Positions 25,758 through 33,435 of a DNA stretch of 64,000 nucleotides are shown here, piece by piece. Positions within the stretch are counted from its first letter, which is position 1; every line of letters begins with the position of its first letter. The position numbers were made by a program, and so were the translations under genes. This DNA comes from Melioribacter roseus P3M-2 (GTDB taxonomy: Bacteria > Bacteroidota > Ignavibacteria > Ignavibacteriales > Melioribacteraceae). A model generated the notes under the pieces. The model was given only the letters and a program-made list of their open reading frames with translations, did no database searches and was not told the DNA's origin. The DNA lies in contig NC_018178.1 of assembly GCF_000279145.1 (NCBI RefSeq), positions 434,001 through 498,000 of the forward strand. The letters are read 5' to 3'.

Positions 25758-26468
25758 TCACCAACTTCCGCTGGCTCCGCCGCCTCCGAAAGAACCGCCT
25801 CCTCCGCTGAAGCCGCCTCCGCCGAAACCGCCTCCTCCCCAGCCGCCGCTTCTTCCGCCTCCCATTGAACCGATAACAAGCCAGGGCAGTAATCCTCCTC
25901 TTTTTCCCCCTCGGGTTAAGAGCAAAAAGAGTATTATCATTATTATATAACCGATCGGCGCTTTTACATTGTCATCGTCTACGCGTTTATCGTTCGTATA
26001 CTCGCCTTTGACAGCCATCATAATTGCCGCTATTCCGGATTTAATACCCGAATAGTAATCTCCTTCTCTGAAATAGGGTCTCACCTCGTTTCGAAGAATC
26101 GAACTTGCAAGCGCGTCCGGCAACGCGCCTTCCAAACCGTATCCCACTTCAATGCGCATTTTTCTGTCCTCTTTTGCCACAAAGAACAAAACGCCGTTGT
26201 TTTTTCCGGCTCGCCCGATTTTATTCTTGTCGGCAACTTCATACGTATAATATTCGAGCGGATAACCCTGCAAAGAACGTATCATTAGAAATTCGATTTG
26301 AGTGGAAGTCGAATCGTCAAAACTTTTTAACAAATAATTCAGCTCGCTCAGTTGCGACTGAGTGAGCGTAGAAGTAAAATCGTTGGCGTAGTTTTTAAGC
26401 GCTGGTATCTCCGGCTGCGCAGTCAACCGAAATGAAAATAAAAGTAATATAAAAACGATTTTTTTCAT
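25758..26468 (-). CDS. TPM-domain (YgcG-like) exported membrane protein with Gly-rich tail
   Basis: A 236-residue protein with signal peptide (ending RLTAQ), a TPM_phosphatase domain (YANDFTSTLTQSQLSELNYLL at the start, NNGVLFFVAKEDRKMRIEVG in the middle, and the GLEGALPDALAS segment), one membrane helix near 172-190 and a long glycine/serine tail. This combination is typical of the YgcG-type proteins that are coupled with LemA. ATG at 26468 is chosen over a TTG one codon upstream. The biochemical role is unknown; some TPM proteins help assemble photosystem complexes in plants. Confidence 0.9.
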   Translation of the reverse strand: MKKIVFILLLFSFRLTAQPEIPALKNYANDFTSTLTQSQLSELNYLLKSFDDSTSTQIEFLMIRSLQGYPLEYYTYEVADKNKIGRAGKNNGVLFFVAKEDRKMRIEVGYGLEGALPDALASSILRNEVRPYFREGDYYSGIKSGIAAIMMAVKGEYTNDKRVDDDNVKAPIGYIIMIILFLLLTRGGKRGGLLPWLVIGSMGGGRSGGWGGGGFGGGGFSGGGGSFGGGGASGSW

Positions 26469-26482
26469 CAATAACAGATTCG

Positions 26483-27088
26483 CTAAAATTGAACTCTGGG
26501 AGCTTCTTCAGCGCCGGTTGCAGCGCGGAAATACTCTTTTTCTTTGAAACCCGCCATATTGGCAATCAAAGCGGCGGGGAAACGTTTTATTTGCGTATTA
26601 TATTCCTGAACAACCTGATTATATTTCATTCTTTCCACTGCTATTCTGTTTTCCGTTCCTTCGAGCTGAGCCTGCAACTGAAGAAAGTTTTCGTTGGCTT
26701 TCAATTGGGGATAATTTTCCGAAACAACCAATAATCTCGATAACGCGCTGCTCAGCCCGTCCTGAGCCTGCTGGAATTTCCTGAAAGCTTCGGGGTCGCT
26801 TAACTGGTCGGGCGACAGTCTAATTTGACCGACTTTTGCTCTTGCTTCGGTAACCGCGGTATAAGTTTCTTTTTCGAAATTGGCCACTCCTTTGACTGTC
26901 TCCACCAGATTGGGAATCAGGTCATAACGCCGTTGATATTGATTTTCCACCTGACTCCAAGCCTGATTGACCTTTTCGTTCAAACCGATCAGATTATTGT
27001 AAACACCCACGCCCCATCCGACAATAACAAGAATAAGAATTACAAGCGCGGCGACTATACCGAGCGCAATCATTAAACCTTTTTTCAT
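26483..27088 (-). CDS. lemA: LemA family protein
   Basis: A 201-residue protein with an N-terminal membrane helix (ALVILILVIVGWGVGVYNN) followed by a long helical domain with the family motifs NEKVNQAWSQVENQYQRRYDLIPNLVETVKG, the SRLLVVSENYPQLKANENF stretch, and ERMKYNQVVQEYN. LemA proteins face outward from the inner membrane and are of unclear function. A strong AGGAGGT site precedes the ATG at 27088. Pairing with a TPM/YgcG gene 14 bases downstream is conserved in many bacteria and suggests a joint complex. Confidence 0.96.
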   Translation of the reverse strand: MKKGLMIALGIVAALVILILVIVGWGVGVYNNLIGLNEKVNQAWSQVENQYQRRYDLIPNLVETVKGVANFEKETYTAVTEARAKVGQIRLSPDQLSDPEAFRKFQQAQDGLSSALSRLLVVSENYPQLKANENFLQLQAQLEGTENRIAVERMKYNQVVQEYNTQIKRFPAALIANMAGFKEKEYFRAATGAEEAPRVQF

Positions 27089-27104
27089 CGTACCTCCTGA
27101 AATA

Positions 27105-28466
27105 TTAGTTTGTTAGACTTCTCATAGGGGCAGGAATTCTGCCGCCTCTGTTTATAAAACCCGAACTGCAAAGTTTTTTGACTTCCATGACCGGAGCTTT
27201 ACCCAGCAAACCGCCGTAATCCACAAAATCGCCGACCACTTTACCGAAAGCGGGAATTATTCTGACCGCGGTAGTTTTATCGTTAATCACACCGATAGCC
27301 GATTCGTCGGCGATTATACCGGCGATTGTTTCGACGGGAGTGTCTCCGGGTATTGCAATCATATCGAGTCCCACCGAACAAACAGCCGTCATAGCTTCGA
27401 GTTTTTCGAGAGTCAGATTCCCGTTTTGAACCGCCCGAATCATTCCCATATCTTCGCTGACCGGAATAAAAGCTCCGCTGAGACCTCCTACCGAAGAACT
27501 TGCCATCAAGCCGGCTTTCTTAACTGCGTCATTCAACATAGCCAGAGCCGCAGTTGTTCCCGGCGCGCCTACGTCTTCAAGTCCCATGGCTTTTAGAATG
27601 TCTCCTATACTGTCTCCCTCGGCGGGCGTGGGAGCCAAAGAGATATCGACTATGCCGAACGGGATGCCGTTTTTTTCGGCTACTTTCCTGCCGATTAATT
27701 CACCCGCTCGAGTAATCTTAAAAATAGTTTTTTTAATAACTTCAGCAAGTTGCTGCAAATCGACGCGTCCGGCTTCACGAATTGCGTCTAGCACAACGCC
27801 GGGCCCGCTAATACCGACATTTAACACTACTTCCGGCTCGCTGACGCCGTGGAATGCTCCTGCGACAAAAGGATTGTCTTCTACGGCATTGGCAAAGACA
27901 ACCAGTTTTGCGCAACCGATAGAATCGTGGTCTTTTGTTAATTCGGCGGTTTTTTTAATCGCTTCCGCCATCAATCTGACAGCGTCGATATTGATACCGG
28001 TTTTCGTGGAGGCCACATTGACGCTTGAACAAACACGTTTTGTCGAAGCCAACGCAAGCGGTATCGAATTAATTAATTCCCTTTCGCCGTTAGTCATTCC
28101 TTTTTGAACCAAGGCGGAATATCCGGCGATGTAATCGATGCCGATATCAGCAGCCGCTTTATCGAGAGTCCGAGCAATCTCTACGAATTCCTCTTCTTTG
28201 CAGGAATCGAACGGTATCGATATAGGCGTAACGGAGACTCTTTTATTGGCAATCGAGATACCGTATTGAGCTTCGATTTCCTTTGCGTACTTTACGTGAT
28301 TTTTCCCGTAACGAATTATCTTATCGTATATTTTCTGACAGGTTACTTTAATATTCCTGTCGGAGCAATCCCTCAAACTTATTCCCATTGTAACCGTACG
28401 GATGTCAAAGTGTTCGATTTCTGTCATCCGTATGGTTTCGAGGATTTCTTCGAATTCGTATTGCAT
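27105..28466 (-). CDS. UPF0210 (DUF711/PFL-like) protein
   Basis: A 453-residue cytoplasmic protein of the UPF0210 family, distantly related to pyruvate formate-lyase and ribonucleotide reductase folds. Recognisable segments are [22 protein letters not shown] at the start, [37 protein letters not shown]-type sequence and the [21 protein letters not shown] region near residue 310. No catalytic role is known. The gene follows UPF0237 (ACT domain) with a 29-base gap, a pair found together in many genomes, which suggests a shared regulatory or metabolic function linked to amino acids. Confidence 0.92.
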
Positions 28467-28495
28467 AAGCGGATAATCTTATTTTGTGATAGTGA

Positions 28496-28924
28496 TTAAA
28501 TTCTGTGCATAAATCTGAAAACGTCTTCGTGCTGCAAATATATTTTAATTTTAAGGTCTTCGGCGACCTTTTGCATTTCGCTTTGAACCTCGCTCAAATC
28601 TTTTGGCGAAGCCGTAATATCGATAATCATTATCATCGTAAAAAAGTCGCCCATAATTTTCTGACTCAAGTCGAGAATATCGCAACCGTTTTCCGCCAGC
28701 GCTTTTGTAACGGCAGCCACGATTCCGGGTTTATTCAATCCGAATGAAGTGAGAATAACCCTACCGGAATCCAGACTTTTGTTTTTCAGATCGATATTGT
28801 CGACGTTCATAGTTTCGATTTTGGAACGGACGGCATTTTTAATTTCGTCTTTTGTGGCTCCCAGCCCGAGTTCTTCGATAGTTTCGAGCGTAATTTTTCT
28901 TATAATATCTTCTGTGATTTTCAT
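28496..28924 (-). CDS. UPF0237-like ACT domain protein
   Basis: A 142-residue protein. Residues of about 55-140 form an ACT domain of the UPF0237/GcvR type (VILTSFGLNKPGIVAAVTKALAENGC, then GDFFTMIMIIDI). An N-terminal extension of about 50 charged residues is not seen in the common 90-residue form. ACT domains bind small ligands, often amino acids, so this is likely to be a sensor for the UPF0210 protein encoded next. The ATG shares an ATGA overlap with the upstream TPR gene. Confidence 0.88.
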   Translation of the reverse strand: MKITEDIIRKITLETIEELGLGATKDEIKNAVRSKIETMNVDNIDLKNKSLDSGRVILTSFGLNKPGIVAAVTKALAENGCDILDLSQKIMGDFFTMIMIIDITASPKDLSEVQSEMQKVAEDLKIKIYLQHEDVFRFMHRI

Positions 28925-29760
28925 GGTTTTGCTCCGTCGTAATTTAACTGGAAATATGCGAGCGCTTTATTATAGATTTCTTTGTTCCTCTTGTAAGCGT
29001 TTCTTTCCGCCGCTTGAATATTACCTCTGTAAAAGCGCAGCCATAAGAGAGCGCCGTTTGTCATGCCGTCGAAAATTCGCTCGGCTGCAAATGCCTCTGC
29101 CGTAAAATATCCGAACAATAAATTATACCCGAGCGACATAAATCCTTGCAGATAATTTCCCGTATAAATAAGACCACTTCCCGGCACAATATAAGAAATT
29201 GTTTTTGCAAAAGTAACCGAATATTTTTGCTCGATAACATTCCTGCATACGCGCTGCATATCATACGACAACTGATTTTCTTTTAAAATCCGATAAGCCT
29301 CGTCCCACTTATCGTTAAAAATATTAATCCAGGCTCTCCAGTAATTGAGAGAATCTCTTTTGTCGCCGAATCTTTCGTCTTTTTCAATTTCCTCAATAAT
29401 TTCGTCGGCTCTAGCCAGAGTGCCCCTCAATATATTTACTTTAATCATTTCGATTTTTGTCCTGAACTCTTTGCCTCTGTCATCGGCGTCGAGAGAAGCC
29501 TTGAAAAAATATTTTACGGCGTCGTCGAAGCGCGCGCCTGCTTTGTACGATTTCCCTATCATAAAATTAGAGTAATACGAATACTCGGACGGACTGTTTG
29601 TCAGTTCGGCAAAAAACCGGAGCCTTTTATATTCGGTGATAGCGTCGAAATAATTCCCGCTTTTATACAAACTGTCGGCTTTCGCTCTTATGCTCTCAAG
29701 CGAATTTTGAGCGCTTAAAGCGGAAAAAAACAGAAAGAATATCAAAAGTAATTTTTTCAT
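28921..29760 (-). CDS. Exported TPR protein with C-terminal DUF5683-like membrane module
   Basis: A 279-residue protein: signal peptide MKKLLLIFFLFFSALSAQ, then TPR-like helices (SLYKSGNYFDAITEYKRL near residue 31, SYKAGARFDDAVKYF near 72), then a C-terminal module with the motif SYIVPGSGLIYTGN (about 190) and a membrane-like helix followed by WLRFYRGNIQAAERNAY. The gene upstream ends with the same two motifs (IPGAGKIYTGN, and FYAGNIYGSVAAANIYN), so the two are paralogues. The Pro-Gly-x-Gly-x-x-Tyr-x-Gly motif resembles DUF5683/TM2-type membrane hairpins. It overlaps both neighbours by four bases. The function is unknown. Confidence 0.8.
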   Translation of the reverse strand: MKKLLLIFFLFFSALSAQNSLESIRAKADSLYKSGNYFDAITEYKRLRFFAELTNSPSEYSYYSNFMIGKSYKAGARFDDAVKYFFKASLDADDRGKEFRTKIEMIKVNILRGTLARADEIIEEIEKDERFGDKRDSLNYWRAWINIFNDKWDEAYRILKENQLSYDMQRVCRNVIEQKYSVTFAKTISYIVPGSGLIYTGNYLQGFMSLGYNLLFGYFTAEAFAAERIFDGMTNGALLWLRFYRGNIQAAERNAYKRNKEIYNKALAYFQLNYDGAKP

Positions 29761-30613
29761 TTTACATTCAAATCCGGCATGTAATAATTTCTTGACTCAA
29801 AATAAAATCTGATTTTTTTATCGGTATCGACGCGGATTCTCGCGTTGTAGATATTCGCAGCCGCAACCGATCCGTAAATATTACCCGCGTAAAAAGCCGC
29901 CGCCATACCCGCAAAGAGATAACCTCTGAATTTATGATCATGCTGAAAAGCCGAAACCGAGAGATAAGCCGTAAGACCCGTAACTATAAACGAAGCGATC
30001 CCGTCGCTAATGTTACCAGTATAAATTTTCCCTGCGCCCGGTATGATCGCCGACAGGATTCCCGCTTTCAATTCGCTTTTAACCGGCGGATTAAGTTTAA
30101 GATCATATAAACTTTTTATTTCGGTTTTGTTCGAATCCGGAAACGCCCCGAAAAACTCAGACGTGTCCGACGCCTTTTTGCCTTCGTACAGATACGATAT
30201 GGCGGACAGTAATTTCACGTTTGTTTTGTATTCTTCCGGTTGATAGACATCATATTCAGCCAATTTTCTGAAGTTATCCAAATTTCCGGTCAAAAAACAC
30301 GAAAGGTAAAATTTTAATTTTGCTTTCTCTCCAAGTTTCGAATTAAAGAAGAGCGATTTGAAATTAACGGCAGCCTCTTCGTAACGCCTCATATTAAAAA
30401 AACAATCGGCGTATTTAAATAGCGCCGTGTCGTTATGCGAAAATTTGAGATAAGCCCTGTATTCGTCGAGAGCGCGCAGATAGTCGTTAGAGTCATAAAG
30501 ATAATCGGCAAACTTCAGACGGTACTCGGGAGAATAAAAATCGAATTCGGCTGTTTGAGCGATAAGCCTGTTAGAAAACAAAAAAGAATTAGAAAAAGCT
30601 TACTTATCTTCAT
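29757..30613 (-). CDS. Exported TPR protein with DUF5683-like module; probable frameshift in signal peptide
   Basis: The main frame codes for TPR helices (KFADYLYDSNDYLRALDEYRAY, ALFKYADCFFNMRRYEEAAVNF) and a C-terminal module (SAIIPGAGKIYTGNISDG) like that of the next gene. As read, this frame can only start at a weak TTG at 30581 and lacks most of a signal peptide. An ATG at 30613, overlapping the YidD-like gene, opens MKISKLFLILF in another phase. One added T in the six-base run at 30580-30585 joins them into a normal signal peptide ending SNRLIAQ. I therefore annotate from 30613 with a single-base frameshift, either a sequencing error or real. Confidence 0.75.
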
Positions 30614-31019
30614 TCGGAATCGCCTGATATTTATTCGGTAATAAAGAATAGATTTCGGGAGGGTCGTAAAATTTTCCGCTTGCCGAGACGGGATAGTCTT
30701 CAAATCCTTTGAAAAAATTTATGTCTCTCACAAAACGGTCCGAAAACATCAGAAATCCTTTAAAAACGCCTTCCGATTTAATCGATCTGACGAAGAAAGC
30801 CGAACAGGAAGGCTCAAACGGACAATTGTCCCCGTCCACATCGGATATAAAATACCGATAACCGTTTGCAAGGAATGAAAGTAAATCGTTATTACTCCGT
30901 TGACTACTCTCGGTTTTTACCCGCGTATAGTTAGGCTCAACGGCATTCCATTTAGTCCATTCGGGTTGCGCGTTTAACGATGCGTATAAAATCAAAATAA
31001 ACAGATATACTCGTTTCAT
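30600..31019 (-). CDS. Exported YidD-like protein
   Basis: A 139-residue protein whose residues of about 55-120 match YidD: YRYFISDVDGDNCPFEPSCS corresponds to the family stretch Y-x-x-x-I-S-P ... C-R-F-x-P-T-C-S, followed by FFVRSIKSEGVFKGFLM and RFVRDINFFKGFEDYPV. YidD is normally a cytoplasmic, membrane-attached helper of YidC. This one starts with a signal peptide, MKRVYLFILILYASLNAQ, and lacks the second conserved Cys of the R-C-x-P motif. ATG at 31019 is chosen because it begins the signal peptide; an upstream ATG at 31067 does not. It is the first of three overlapping genes with the two TPR paralogues. Confidence 0.8.
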   Translation of the reverse strand: MKRVYLFILILYASLNAQPEWTKWNAVEPNYTRVKTESSQRSNNDLLSFLANGYRYFISDVDGDNCPFEPSCSAFFVRSIKSEGVFKGFLMFSDRFVRDINFFKGFEDYPVSASGKFYDPPEIYSLLPNKYQAIPNEDK

Positions 31020-31072
31020 AACTTTAATTAAGTTAAAGTGTACTAAAATAACTAAATTTAACGACAAGATGC

Positions 31073-31096
31073 AGGGCGGAGTAGGGATTCCGCCCT
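31073..31096. terminator. Hairpin between acyl-CoA dehydrogenase and YidD-like gene
   Basis: An eight-base stem AGGGCGGA (31073-31080) pairs with 31089-31096 across an eight-base loop. It lies just after the acyl-CoA dehydrogenase stop on the minus strand. The U-run that would follow on the minus strand is poor, so it may be a terminator of moderate strength or an mRNA end-stabilising hairpin. Confidence 0.5.
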
Positions 31097-31106
31097 TTAA
31101 AAATAA

Positions 31107-32255
31107 TTACTCGAAATGTTTTAATATTTCTCTAGCAATAACAATTCTCTGAATTTCCGATGTGCCTTCGTAAATTTCGGTAATTTTTGCGTCGCGCAGG
31201 TACCTTTCCACCAAATATTCCCTTACGTATCCGTAGCCTCCGTGAATTTGAATGGCTTCGAGCGAGTTTTCGACAGCGACTTTTGAAGAATATAATTTTG
31301 CCGTCGCAGCAGCTTCGATATAATCGATATGCTTATCCTTAAGAAATGCGGCTTTTAAAGTAAGGAGTTTAGCCGCTTCGAGATTAACCGACATATCTGC
31401 AAGCTTGAACTGAATTGCTTGCAGATTGGATATCTCGGTTCCGAAAGCTTTGCGGGTTTTGGAATACTTAACCGCAGCCGAGAAAGAGGCTTCCGCAATA
31501 CCGCAAGCTTGAGCCGCTATGCCGATTCGCCCGCCGTTCAATGTATTCATCGCCACATTAAAACCTTTTCCGACTTCCCAAAGAATATTTTCTTCGGGCA
31601 CTTCGCAATTTTCGAACAACAAGGAACACGTGTCGCTGCTACGGATGCCCAGTTTGTCTTCCTTTTTGCCGTGAGTAAATCCTGGAGTTCCTTTTTCTAC
31701 GATAAAGCAAGTAATTCCTTTGTGGCGTTTTACCCTGTCGGTTTGAGCGAACACAAGATAATAATCAGCGTTTATGCCGTTTGTAATCCAATTTTTAACG
31801 CCGTTAATAATCCACCTGTCGCCTTTTTTAACCGCCGATGTATGTTGATGAGTAGCGTCGCTGCCGGCTTCCGGTTCGGACAATGCAAATGCGCCTAATT
31901 TATCGCCCCTCGCCAGAGGTTTAAGATATTTTTCTTTCTGATAATCCGATCCCCATTCTTCCAATCCGTAGCAGACAAGCGAATTATTTACAGACATAAT
32001 CACTCCAAGACTCGCGTCCACTTTGGAAATCTCAATCATCGCCAGCACATAACTAACGGTGTCCAGTCCTGAGCCGTCGTATTCCGGAGACACCATCATG
32101 CCCATAAATCCCAGCTCCCCCATTTTTTTAACCAGATCGTGCGGAAATTCGGCGTTGATATCGCGATCGACGGCTGACGGAGCCGCTTCGTTTTCCGCAA
32201 ATTCTCTGGCCGCCTGTTGAATCAACAGATGTTCTTCGGTTAAATTAAAATCCAT
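31107..32255 (-). CDS. Acyl-CoA dehydrogenase
   Basis: A 382-residue FAD enzyme for alpha,beta-dehydrogenation of acyl-CoA. Motifs include FALSEPEAGSDATH (about 125), GVKNWITNG, the GRIGIAAQACGIAEASF helix and the C-terminal YEGTSEIQRIVIAREIL, whose Glu is the catalytic base of short- and medium-chain enzymes. The N-terminal MDFNLTEEHLLIQQAAREFAENE is typical of the butyryl-CoA dehydrogenase group. I start at ATG 32255, preceded by GGGAG; the frame could extend 52 codons upstream but that part is unlike the family. It is a monocistronic minus-strand gene, divergent from rlmN. Confidence 0.95.
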   Translation of the reverse strand: MDFNLTEEHLLIQQAAREFAENEAAPSAVDRDINAEFPHDLVKKMGELGFMGMMVSPEYDGSGLDTVSYVLAMIEISKVDASLGVIMSVNNSLVCYGLEEWGSDYQKEKYLKPLARGDKLGAFALSEPEAGSDATHQHTSAVKKGDRWIINGVKNWITNGINADYYLVFAQTDRVKRHKGITCFIVEKGTPGFTHGKKEDKLGIRSSDTCSLLFENCEVPEENILWEVGKGFNVAMNTLNGGRIGIAAQACGIAEASFSAAVKYSKTRKAFGTEISNLQAIQFKLADMSVNLEAAKLLTLKAAFLKDKHIDYIEAAATAKLYSSKVAVENSLEAIQIHGGYGYVREYLVERYLRDAKITEIYEGTSEIQRIVIAREILKHFE

Positions 32256-32360
32256 AAATGCTCCCGCATTCGTTAAAATTATTTTGTTTGATATGAAACT
32301 ACGGAATGGAATTTCGAATAGCAACCGAATTATTGACGGGCAATTAATCCCGCGAGTACA

Positions 32361-32368
32361 TATATTTG
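32361..32368 (+). promoter_or_regulatory. Candidate -7 element (TAnnTTTG) of rlmN
   Basis: The octamer TATATTTG matches the TAnnTTTG -7 element known from Bacteroidota promoters and ends only five bases before the rlmN ATG. Transcription from it would yield a leaderless or nearly leaderless mRNA. A clear -33 TTTG at the expected spacing is missing, so the call is tentative. Confidence 0.3.
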
Positions 32369-32373
32369 CCGTT

Positions 32374-33435
32374 ATGAATGGGAATTCTAAGAAAATATTA
32401 AAAGGGCTCACTCTGAACGAGCTGCGCAGTTACTTTGAATCGATAGGCGAGGCAAAGTACCGGGGAGATCAGCTTTTTAACTGGATTTATAACCACATTG
32501 TATTCGACCCCGAAGAGCTGTCCAATTTCCCGAAAAATTTACGCATCCGGCTGACTGAAGAAACCGAATTAATAACGTTGACGCTTCAGGACAAACAACA
32601 TTCGGTTTCGACGGGCACTGTCAAATACTTATTCTCTACAAAAGACGGACACAAAATAGAATCGGTGCTAATTCCCGACGGCGACAGAAATACTCTCTGT
32701 TTGTCCACGCAGGTAGGCTGCCCTCTCGATTGTAAATTCTGCGCTACGGGTTTAATGGGTTTCAAAAGAAATTTATCCGCCGGAGAAATTACAGACCAGT
32801 ATTTATTAATCGCTTCTGACTATGGGAAGGAAAAAATTACAAATATTGTTTTTATGGGAATGGGAGAGCCGCTAACGAATTACAGGAACACTCTTACAGC
32901 CATAGAAATATTCACACACGAACTATCCAAAAGTTTGAGCCGAAATCGTATTACGGTATCCACAGCGGGAATACCTGATAGAATAAGAGAGCTTGCCGAC
33001 AGCGGCTTACGAGTTAAACTTGCATTCTCGCTTCACTCCGCATTTGACGATATCCGCAACAAAATTATGCCCATAAATAAAAAATATCCGCTGGAAAAGA
33101 ATATAGAAGCATTGAAGTATTATGCGGCGAAAACAAAAACTCGGATTACTTTCGAATATACGATGCTTCGGGGCATAAACGACCGGGATGAAGACATTAA
33201 AGAATTAGCCAAAATATGCAGCAGGATTCCTTCCAAAATAAACATCATTCCGTTTAACAGCATAGAACATATGAATCCCGGAGGAATTTCCGCGGAATTG
33301 GAACCGACTCCATACGAAGAGATTATAAACTTTGCAGATAAATTGAGACAACGCAACATAAGCGTATTTATAAGAGATACGCAGGGCGACGACATTGCGG
33401 CTGCCTGCGGGCAACTGGCAGTTAAATACAACTAA
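32374..33435 (+). CDS. rlmN: 23S rRNA (A2503-C2)/tRNA (A37-C2) methyltransferase RlmN
   Basis: A 353-residue radical-SAM methyltransferase. The cluster motif C-x3-C-x2-C is CPLDCKFC (Cys116, Cys120, Cys123); the methyl-carrying Cys lies in the C-terminal AAACGQLA segment, and the MGMGEPLTNY motif binds SAM. The N-terminal helical domain LTLNELRSYFESIGEAKYRGDQLFNWIY is diagnostic for RlmN. I start at ATG 32374 because the family begins about there; a longer frame from 32284 adds 30 residues without similarity. No Shine-Dalgarno site is seen, in line with a leaderless transcript. Confidence 0.95.
   Translation: MNGNSKKILKGLTLNELRSYFESIGEAKYRGDQLFNWIYNHIVFDPEELSNFPKNLRIRLTEETELITLTLQDKQHSVSTGTVKYLFSTKDGHKIESVLIPDGDRNTLCLSTQVGCPLDCKFCATGLMGFKRNLSAGEITDQYLLIASDYGKEKITNIVFMGMGEPLTNYRNTLTAIEIFTHELSKSLSRNRITVSTAGIPDRIRELADSGLRVKLAFSLHSAFDDIRNKIMPINKKYPLEKNIEALKYYAAKTKTRITFEYTMLRGINDRDEDIKELAKICSRIPSKINIIPFNSIEHMNPGGISAELEPTPYEEIINFADKLRQRNISVFIRDTQGDDIAAACGQLAVKYN

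Follow-up and report, generated by a model that had tools for sequence, protein, structure and literature searches.

YidD is described as assisting YidC in the inner membrane, its molecular action being unclear, and a third conserved cysteine is a feature of the canonical YidD family. The gene arrangement rnpA-yidD-yidC, annotated in Escherichia coli K-12, is also found in Melioribacter roseus P3M-2 (phylum Bacteroidota, class Ignavibacteria, order Ignavibacteriales), the genome of which is a single contig of 3.30 Mb (NC_018178.1). Ordinary YidD has been listed among the contacts of SecYEG as a putative insertion factor in one published account (PMC8082313). The present analysis concerns another YidD-like protein of M. 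roseus, P0001, encoded on a stretch of 64,000 nucleotides of this contig (positions 434,001 to 498,000), hereafter called the window, in the numbering of which the positions for this genome are given. P0001 carries a predicted signal peptide for export, and its gene is followed by those of two proteins with tetratricopeptide repeat (TPR) character, T1 (P0003) and T2 (P0002). Judged from sequence comparisons, this gene trio points to an undescribed envelope-building step. No description of an exported YidD or of a YidD-T1-T2 operon was found among the titles and beginnings of abstracts listed for the open literature, subscription papers lying outside this scope, and this agrees with the view taken in an initial sequence-only reading of the window that no such arrangement was known.

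The YidD-like protein and its canonical counterpart

The genes for the YidD-like protein, T1 and T2 were found to lie consecutively and with overlaps on the minus strand, from 31019 to 28921, as the sequence-only reading had placed them. The first of them (30600..31019, minus strand; ATG at 31019, stop at 30600) encodes the 139 amino acids of P0001, and the YidD identity that had been proposed for it was upheld by profile searches. Residues 46-106 match the Pfam family YidD (PF01809) with 46.3 bits (cut-off 27), and the NCBIfam YidD equivalog TIGR00278 is matched with 53.3 bits (cut-off 40). Exported YidD proteins of four relatives from another class of the phylum scored 53.7-63.5 bits against PF01809. 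Within the domain of P0001 (30702..30884, minus strand), delimited with Pfam and alignment, Cys66 and Cys72 are kept and the third cysteine is replaced by aspartate; C66 and C72 are invariant in 39 exported YidD sequences, and the third cysteine is present in all 30 canonical YidD proteins compared. The structure model of P0001 (mean predicted local distance difference test, pLDDT, 76.6) contains helices at residues 46-65, 72-83 and 85-100.

The N-terminus of P0001 is hydrophobic and ends in LNA|Q. A signal peptide is predicted here (30969..31019, minus strand) with cleavage before Gln18 (NA|Q), based on the sequence itself, the aligned glutamine column and the Q-rule, and it is separated from the YidD domain by a spacer of approximately 28 residues. 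Glutamine occupies the cleavage column in at least 90% of 39 aligned exported YidD proteins. The occurrence of glutamine directly after the cleavage site has been reported as the Bacteroidetes Q-rule, with a value of 77% given for Ignavibacterium album (PMC5837995), and the exported-YidD signals, possessing a small residue followed by glutamine, fit this rule.

A plain hydrophobic N-terminus was found to be non-discriminating, being present in 25 of the 30 canonical YidD proteins. A stricter rule, a heuristic and not SignalP, called for a small residue and glutamine after a hydrophobic core, with the signal ending before the YidD domain. This pattern was identified in 108 of 108 exported YidD proteins of a first set (a few class-level loci among them), in 39 of 40 of a second set from the other class (the single miss being truncated by a contig end) and in two of the 30 canonical proteins. 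The sequence-only reading had named homologues without signal peptides as the outcome that would speak against it, and the signals found in both sets point the other way. These counts also bear on the possibility that P0001 keeps its N-terminus as an anchor without cleavage and that the YidD domain is cytoplasmic and works with YidC, as does ordinary YidD. The hydrophobic N-terminal helix common among canonical proteins is in keeping with such an anchor, but the small residue and glutamine ahead of the domain set the exported proteins apart from the canonical ones, and similar signals are carried by most of the order's partner proteins under the strict rule (35 of 39 T1, 35 of 38 T2). Together with the spacer, the location of the gene away from yidC and the fusion of YidD to a TPR region behind one signal peptide in other genomes, described below, this makes a cytoplasmic location quite improbable. 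Among the TPR proteins of the other class, 63 of 81 conformed to the strict rule.

Two PF01809 matches were found in the genome of M. roseus. The other YidD, of 69 residues and 111 bits, fills the slot between rnpA and yidC, and the exported YidD gene lies outside that cluster. Across 58 genomes, this and related ones, PF01809 matches comprised strong ones, which are canonical, and weak ones of 33-50 bits; both kinds were present in 50 genomes, strong matches alone in four and weak matches alone in four. All of the 47 weak-match loci inspected out of 54, that of the window included, carry the exported form. When 84 YidD domains were placed in a tree, built from few columns with unsettled bootstraps and with L295, L312 and L313 left out for motif spacing, the 60 exported and 24 canonical sequences fell on the two sides of one branch with support of 100/100. 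In one genome a third YidD, canonical-like at 70 bits, was observed beside the canonical and exported copies (L068, G047:C113). P0001 is a YidD-domain protein by profile, yet not a canonical YidD by signal, locus and residues, and the fact that it passes the YidD equivalog cut-off in spite of these differences illustrates how automatic naming can mislead.

Conservation, fusion and partner proteins

A first survey covered 107 loci differing in YidD, from Ignavibacteriales with a few class-level loci, chosen at above 60 bits to the exported-YidD profile. T1 and T2 were found to be next in order in 96 of the 98 loci with at least 1.9 kb downstream of YidD. A contig scan with a motif from the order's own alignment had 80 of the 107 confirmed loci among the matches listed, and these matches were mostly labelled Ignavibacteria or Melioribacter, with some labelled only Bacteroidetes, Chlorobiota, Chlorobiaceae or bacterium. 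The other class was surveyed at 58 loci, which cover all 56 of its T1-matching genomes, further T1-like matches in some genomes being left out. Exported YidD, T1 and T2 were found on the same strand and in the same order in 52 of these 58 loci, so that the co-occurrence in other genomes on which the sequence-only reading depended was recovered in both classes. The first 40 loci of this class came from 38 of the 56 genomes and were biased to high T1 scores, and were followed by G232 and the remaining 17 genomes; the 52 trios are made up of 39 (one with a gap of 1.3 kb), that of G232 and 12 more. One of the remaining loci contains a fusion (L326) and another is truncated by a contig end (L332); L297 likewise ends at a contig end, and L321 was recognised by eye. 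Of the 39 trios, 36 have no more than 50 bases between YidD and T1, and 38 no more than this between T1 and T2, the starts of the open reading frames (ORFs) being approximate. The whole operon was observed twice in at least two genomes (G739 and G687; L283/L284 and L287/L288). By this distribution, the trio is an old and widely kept gene set. Its stability throughout the order also counts against the very improbable notion of a haemolysin-like exported YidD domain that disturbs membranes and is restrained or delivered by its TPR partners; according to one account (PMC3573977), the domain owes its former name 'haemolytic' to YtjA of Bacillus subtilis, but no toxin/immunity pattern was recognised, though none was searched for.

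Single proteins of approximately 400-440 residues, which combine a signal peptide, a YidD domain, a TPR region and the PG module that ends T1 and T2, were identified in four genomes belonging to other families of the same class (L184, L204, L205 and L208). A further fusion was found in one genome of the other class (L326). The fused protein of L184 matches PF01809 with 57.9 bits. Being placed behind one signal peptide, the YidD and TPR/PG parts should both end up on one side of the membrane, and these fusions are regarded as the strongest evidence that the separate YidD, T1 and T2 proteins work together. A two-gene form, consisting of YidD and one TPR gene, was found at L186, L206, L207 and L243. 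These two-gene forms are also without the third YidD cysteine and have a shared DRxxYRE segment there instead; the loss of this cysteine is thus not confined to Ignavibacteriales.

In the model of the fused protein (pLDDT 72.7) the C-terminal module was well predicted (above 90 for residues 291-370; helices 315-337 and 341-385), the middle is TPR-like and a linker at residues 112-146 was poorly predicted. Foldseek searches of the PDB returned no match at E<=0.001 for either the P0001 model or the fused model, and the exported YidD profile found no related chain among solved structures, the single match having an E value of 0.91. VIA-align of the fused model mainly aligned the TPR part with generic TPR proteins (best Z 10.8), and these helical-repeat matches may simply reflect a common arrangement. 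The joint alignment used YidD rows ending ahead of the DP motif and, from the TPR rows, the C-terminal module alone.

T1 (29757..30581, minus strand; open frame from 30581) is a TPR protein with a C-terminal PGxGxxYTGN module. T2 (28921..29760, minus strand), of 279 amino acids, is a TPR protein with the same module and a signal peptide ending SA|Q, and the start of its gene overlaps the T1 stop by four bases. The signature common to both is PGxGxxYTGN ... YxGNI; by alignment the module lies at 29844..30080 (minus strand) in T1, where it reaches 14.4 bits against DUF5683 (cut-off 26.7), and at 29011..29208 (minus strand; PGSGLIYTGN ... RFYRGNI) in T2. Of the PGxGxxY residues, P, both G and Y are invariant across 33 T1 proteins; across 31 T2 proteins this holds for P, G and Y. 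T1 and T2 proteins match each other by phmmer, with a best E value of ~5e-14 for P0003 against T2 proteins, and the claim that the two are paralogues with a common C-terminal signature is borne out. Their earlier description as TPR proteins with a membrane module held for the signature; the TPR, TM2 and DUF5683 assignments lie mostly below cut-offs. The TPR assignment of P0002 and P0003 is by weak Pfam matches below the curated cut-offs, with a TPR match above cut-off in the T2 of one relative, and by the generic TPR-like structural matches of the fused protein; one relative's T2 scored 17.4 bits against TM2 (cut-off 27.9) and 17.2 bits against DUF5683 (cut-off 26.7).

In this assembly the start codon of T1 and the bases coding for its signal peptide (30582..30613, minus strand), which overlap the YidD stop codon, are in a frame that differs from the rest of T1, the ATG at 30613-30611 being out of frame with the remainder; the sequence-only reading had missed this. 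This frame change may be an assembly error or a true frame break. A short run of T adjoins it (window 30582-30613, minus strand), and the frame is intact in most relatives; across the order the signal is in frame in 35 of 39 T1 ORFs by the strict rule and in 37 of 39 by a looser rule.

A tree of 110 C-terminal modules was built with labels assigned by gene order alone, from few columns with unsettled bootstraps and with L279_T1 left out. The T1 (98/89), T2 (100/98), fused (100/91) and single (97/95) modules each formed one group, with T2 apart from all others at 100/98. The split between T1 and T2 is probably older than that of the two classes.

Neighbouring genes in the two classes

The YidD-like gene of the window is flanked by an acyl-CoA dehydrogenase gene and T1, and an ACT-domain gene identified with Pfam (28496..28924, minus strand) overlaps the end of T2, its start at 28924 sharing four bases with the T2 stop in the same manner as T2 does with T1. 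These genes are part of a conserved block (window 25758-33435) of RlmN, acyl-CoA dehydrogenase, YidD, T1, T2, ACT, DUF711, LemA and TPM. Among the 107 Ignavibacteriales loci, with counts limited by contig ends, acyl-CoA dehydrogenase was found in 89, RlmN in 70, ACT in 59, DUF711 in 56, LemA in 47 and TPM in 37. The nearness of the ACT gene probably reflects order-wide gene order only. As clues to function, the acyl-CoA dehydrogenase, ACT, DUF711, LemA, TPM and RlmN genes were rejected, since they seem to represent order-wide synteny and did not recur in the clusters of neighbours from the other class. An ORF of 92 residues found upstream in 29 of the 107 loci was likewise set aside; its match to DUF2442 is weak (13.0 of 23.9 bits).

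A conserved block of this length could by itself keep the three genes of the order together, as would be expected of chance neighbours or of a gene-calling artefact. However, the trio is intact in another class with different outer neighbours and its parts are fused in other genomes, and such an explanation is extremely improbable.

In the other class, a gene for an exported LolA-like protein of approximately 220-285 residues was found directly upstream of YidD in 36 of the 52 trios. These LolA-superfamily-like genes lie at 36 loci among L244, L277-L316, L323 and L330 (for example L277 2157-2876). Against NCBIfam, four of the proteins matched lolA and two LolB1_Flavo; a search of the PDB gave three matches (E 0.18, 0.3 and 1.2), none significant, of which two were LolA-type. 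Directly upstream of the fused and two-gene forms, a PEGA-type lipoprotein is encoded in six of eight loci (L184 2654-3124, L205 1892-2374, L208 980-1537, L207 1812-2333, L206 3216-3737 and L243 4665-5153), and in the two compared with Pfam the PEGA match exceeds its cut-off. In part of the other class, small proteins of the TM2 type and a related small membrane protein were also observed near the operon (L277 1721-2167, L244 2447-2899, L306 6745-7212 and others).

The weak LolA/LolB-like matches of the upstream gene in many relatives lend themselves to an explanation in which the trio moves lipid or pigment rather than proteins, as has been thought of LolA2/LolB2 and flexirubin; in Flavobacterium johnsoniae LolA2 and LolB2 are reported from the flexirubin operon (PMC11885536). 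This is rather improbable, YidD having been tied to protein insertion in published accounts (PMC8082313, PMC3573977) and no recurring pigment or lipid synthesis genes being recognised beside the trio, though most neighbours are unannotated. An unlikely alternative is that the trio serves as an accessory factor for one outer-membrane machine of Bacteroidota, for example type IX secretion or gliding, rather than for a general insertion step. The trio was found in this phylum, in the groups searched, lipoprotein carriers are reported to matter for type IX secretion (PMC11885536), and weak similarity in the TPR links T2 with an OmpA-like envelope family (23.7 of 620 bits) and with PorW/SprE (17 of 250 bits). 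That similarity is generic and far below cut-off, however, and no type IX secretion gene was recognised beside the trio, most of its neighbours being unannotated.

A possible periplasmic role and comparison with known systems

The reading preferred here is a tentative one, plausible though short of probable: YidD, T1 and T2 may form one extracytoplasmic complex that helps cargo to enter a membrane from the periplasmic side. After cleavage of its signal peptide, YidD would be situated at the periplasmic face of a membrane and held there by the TPR domains of T1 and T2, the TM2-like modules of which would dock in or on that membrane. The exported YidD would then ease entry of the cargo from this side in the way that cytoplasmic YidD does beside YidC, and the cargo would most likely be lipidated or membrane-bound envelope proteins, delivered by the LolA-like carrier where the operon includes that gene. 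The sequence-only reading had suggested a new envelope or membrane-protein system on the periplasmic side; the part of this suggestion that stands is a conserved exported YidD with a TPR pair, and the periplasmic role is inferred with help from the fusions and the LolA-like and PEGA neighbours.

Several observations weigh against the proposed complex or limit its reach. The third cysteine is replaced by aspartate not only in P0001 but in 102 of the 108 rows of the first set (the remainder being three with cysteine, one with glutamate and two missed by the rule); all 40 exported YidD proteins from the other class retain it, as do the fused forms. The C-terminal module of T1 and T2 is weakly hydrophobic, which also tempers its earlier designation as a membrane module. 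The LolA-like gene is unevenly distributed over the batches surveyed (33 of the first 39 trios, G232, and two of the last 12), and no LolA-like homologue was found in the genome of the window (best E 0.03) or beside its trio. Where 31 of the LolA-like upstream proteins were compared with Pfam, 16 matched LolA_like and seven DUF4292 at E<=0.1 without reaching a curated cut-off, and the best NCBIfam E value, 3.2e-5 for one member, was to a beta-lactamase family. In the first survey T1 occurs without T2 at L039 and YidD stands alone at L116, and in the other class T1-T2 was found without YidD at L324 and L327 and T1 alone at L286 and L334. Two nearly complete genomes of the order (G041, G043) are without exported YidD and T2, T2 matches outside the order were obtained in 12 of 202 genomes of the class, and of 247 genomes from the other class the T1 profile matched 56. 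This patchy occurrence in both classes indicates that the trio is not essential for the outer membrane. Furthermore, L203_T2 and L066_T1 group with rows of the other class in the tree of C-terminal modules, making transfer between lineages possible.

A surface-lipoprotein reporter was reported to reach the cell surface of F. johnsoniae even when every known LolA and LolB of that species was missing (PMC11885536, 2025), which implies that further envelope routes exist in Bacteroidota, and the YidD-T1-T2 operon is one concrete candidate for such a route. In an extended form of the proposed complex, exported YidD and the T1/T2 scaffold, joined in many relatives by a LolA-fold carrier or a PEGA lipoprotein, would make up a periplasmic-side insertion machine of Bacteroidota. 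Such a machine would mirror YidD-YidC in inserting lipoproteins or other membrane-bound proteins into a membrane, and it could belong to the lipoprotein route independent of LolA/LolB that has been reported for the phylum; in this form the proposal is distinctly doubtful. More generally, the existence of a separate exported branch tied or fused to TPR proteins suggests that the YidD fold may be active on the opposite side of a membrane, and would offer a handle on the fold's own action.

Compared with described systems, a likeness to the LolA/LolB carriers of Bacteroidota is suggested by several weak, mostly concordant matches to the LolA superfamily for the gene that precedes YidD in 36 of the other class's 52 trios; no such gene was found in the genome of the window, and every match is below the curated cut-off. 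The likeness to PorW/SprE-like periplasmic TPR proteins is confined to the idea of a TPR scaffold; there is no family-level match, and T1 and T2 possess the PG module and pair with YidD. That module shares with TM2 (PF05154) and DUF5683 (PF18935) the PG-x-G-x-x-Y-x-G motif followed by predicted helices, whereas it scores below their curated cut-offs, is less hydrophobic and is joined to TPR and a signal peptide. Canonical YidD (TIGR00278/PF01809) has in common with the exported form the C-x-F-x-P-[ST]-C-S core, two of the three cysteines and a DP near the end. In contrast, the exported form has a signal peptide and spacer, fixed TPR partners and another locus, the third cysteine is replaced in the protein of the window, and the two forms stand on opposite sides of the 100/100 branch.

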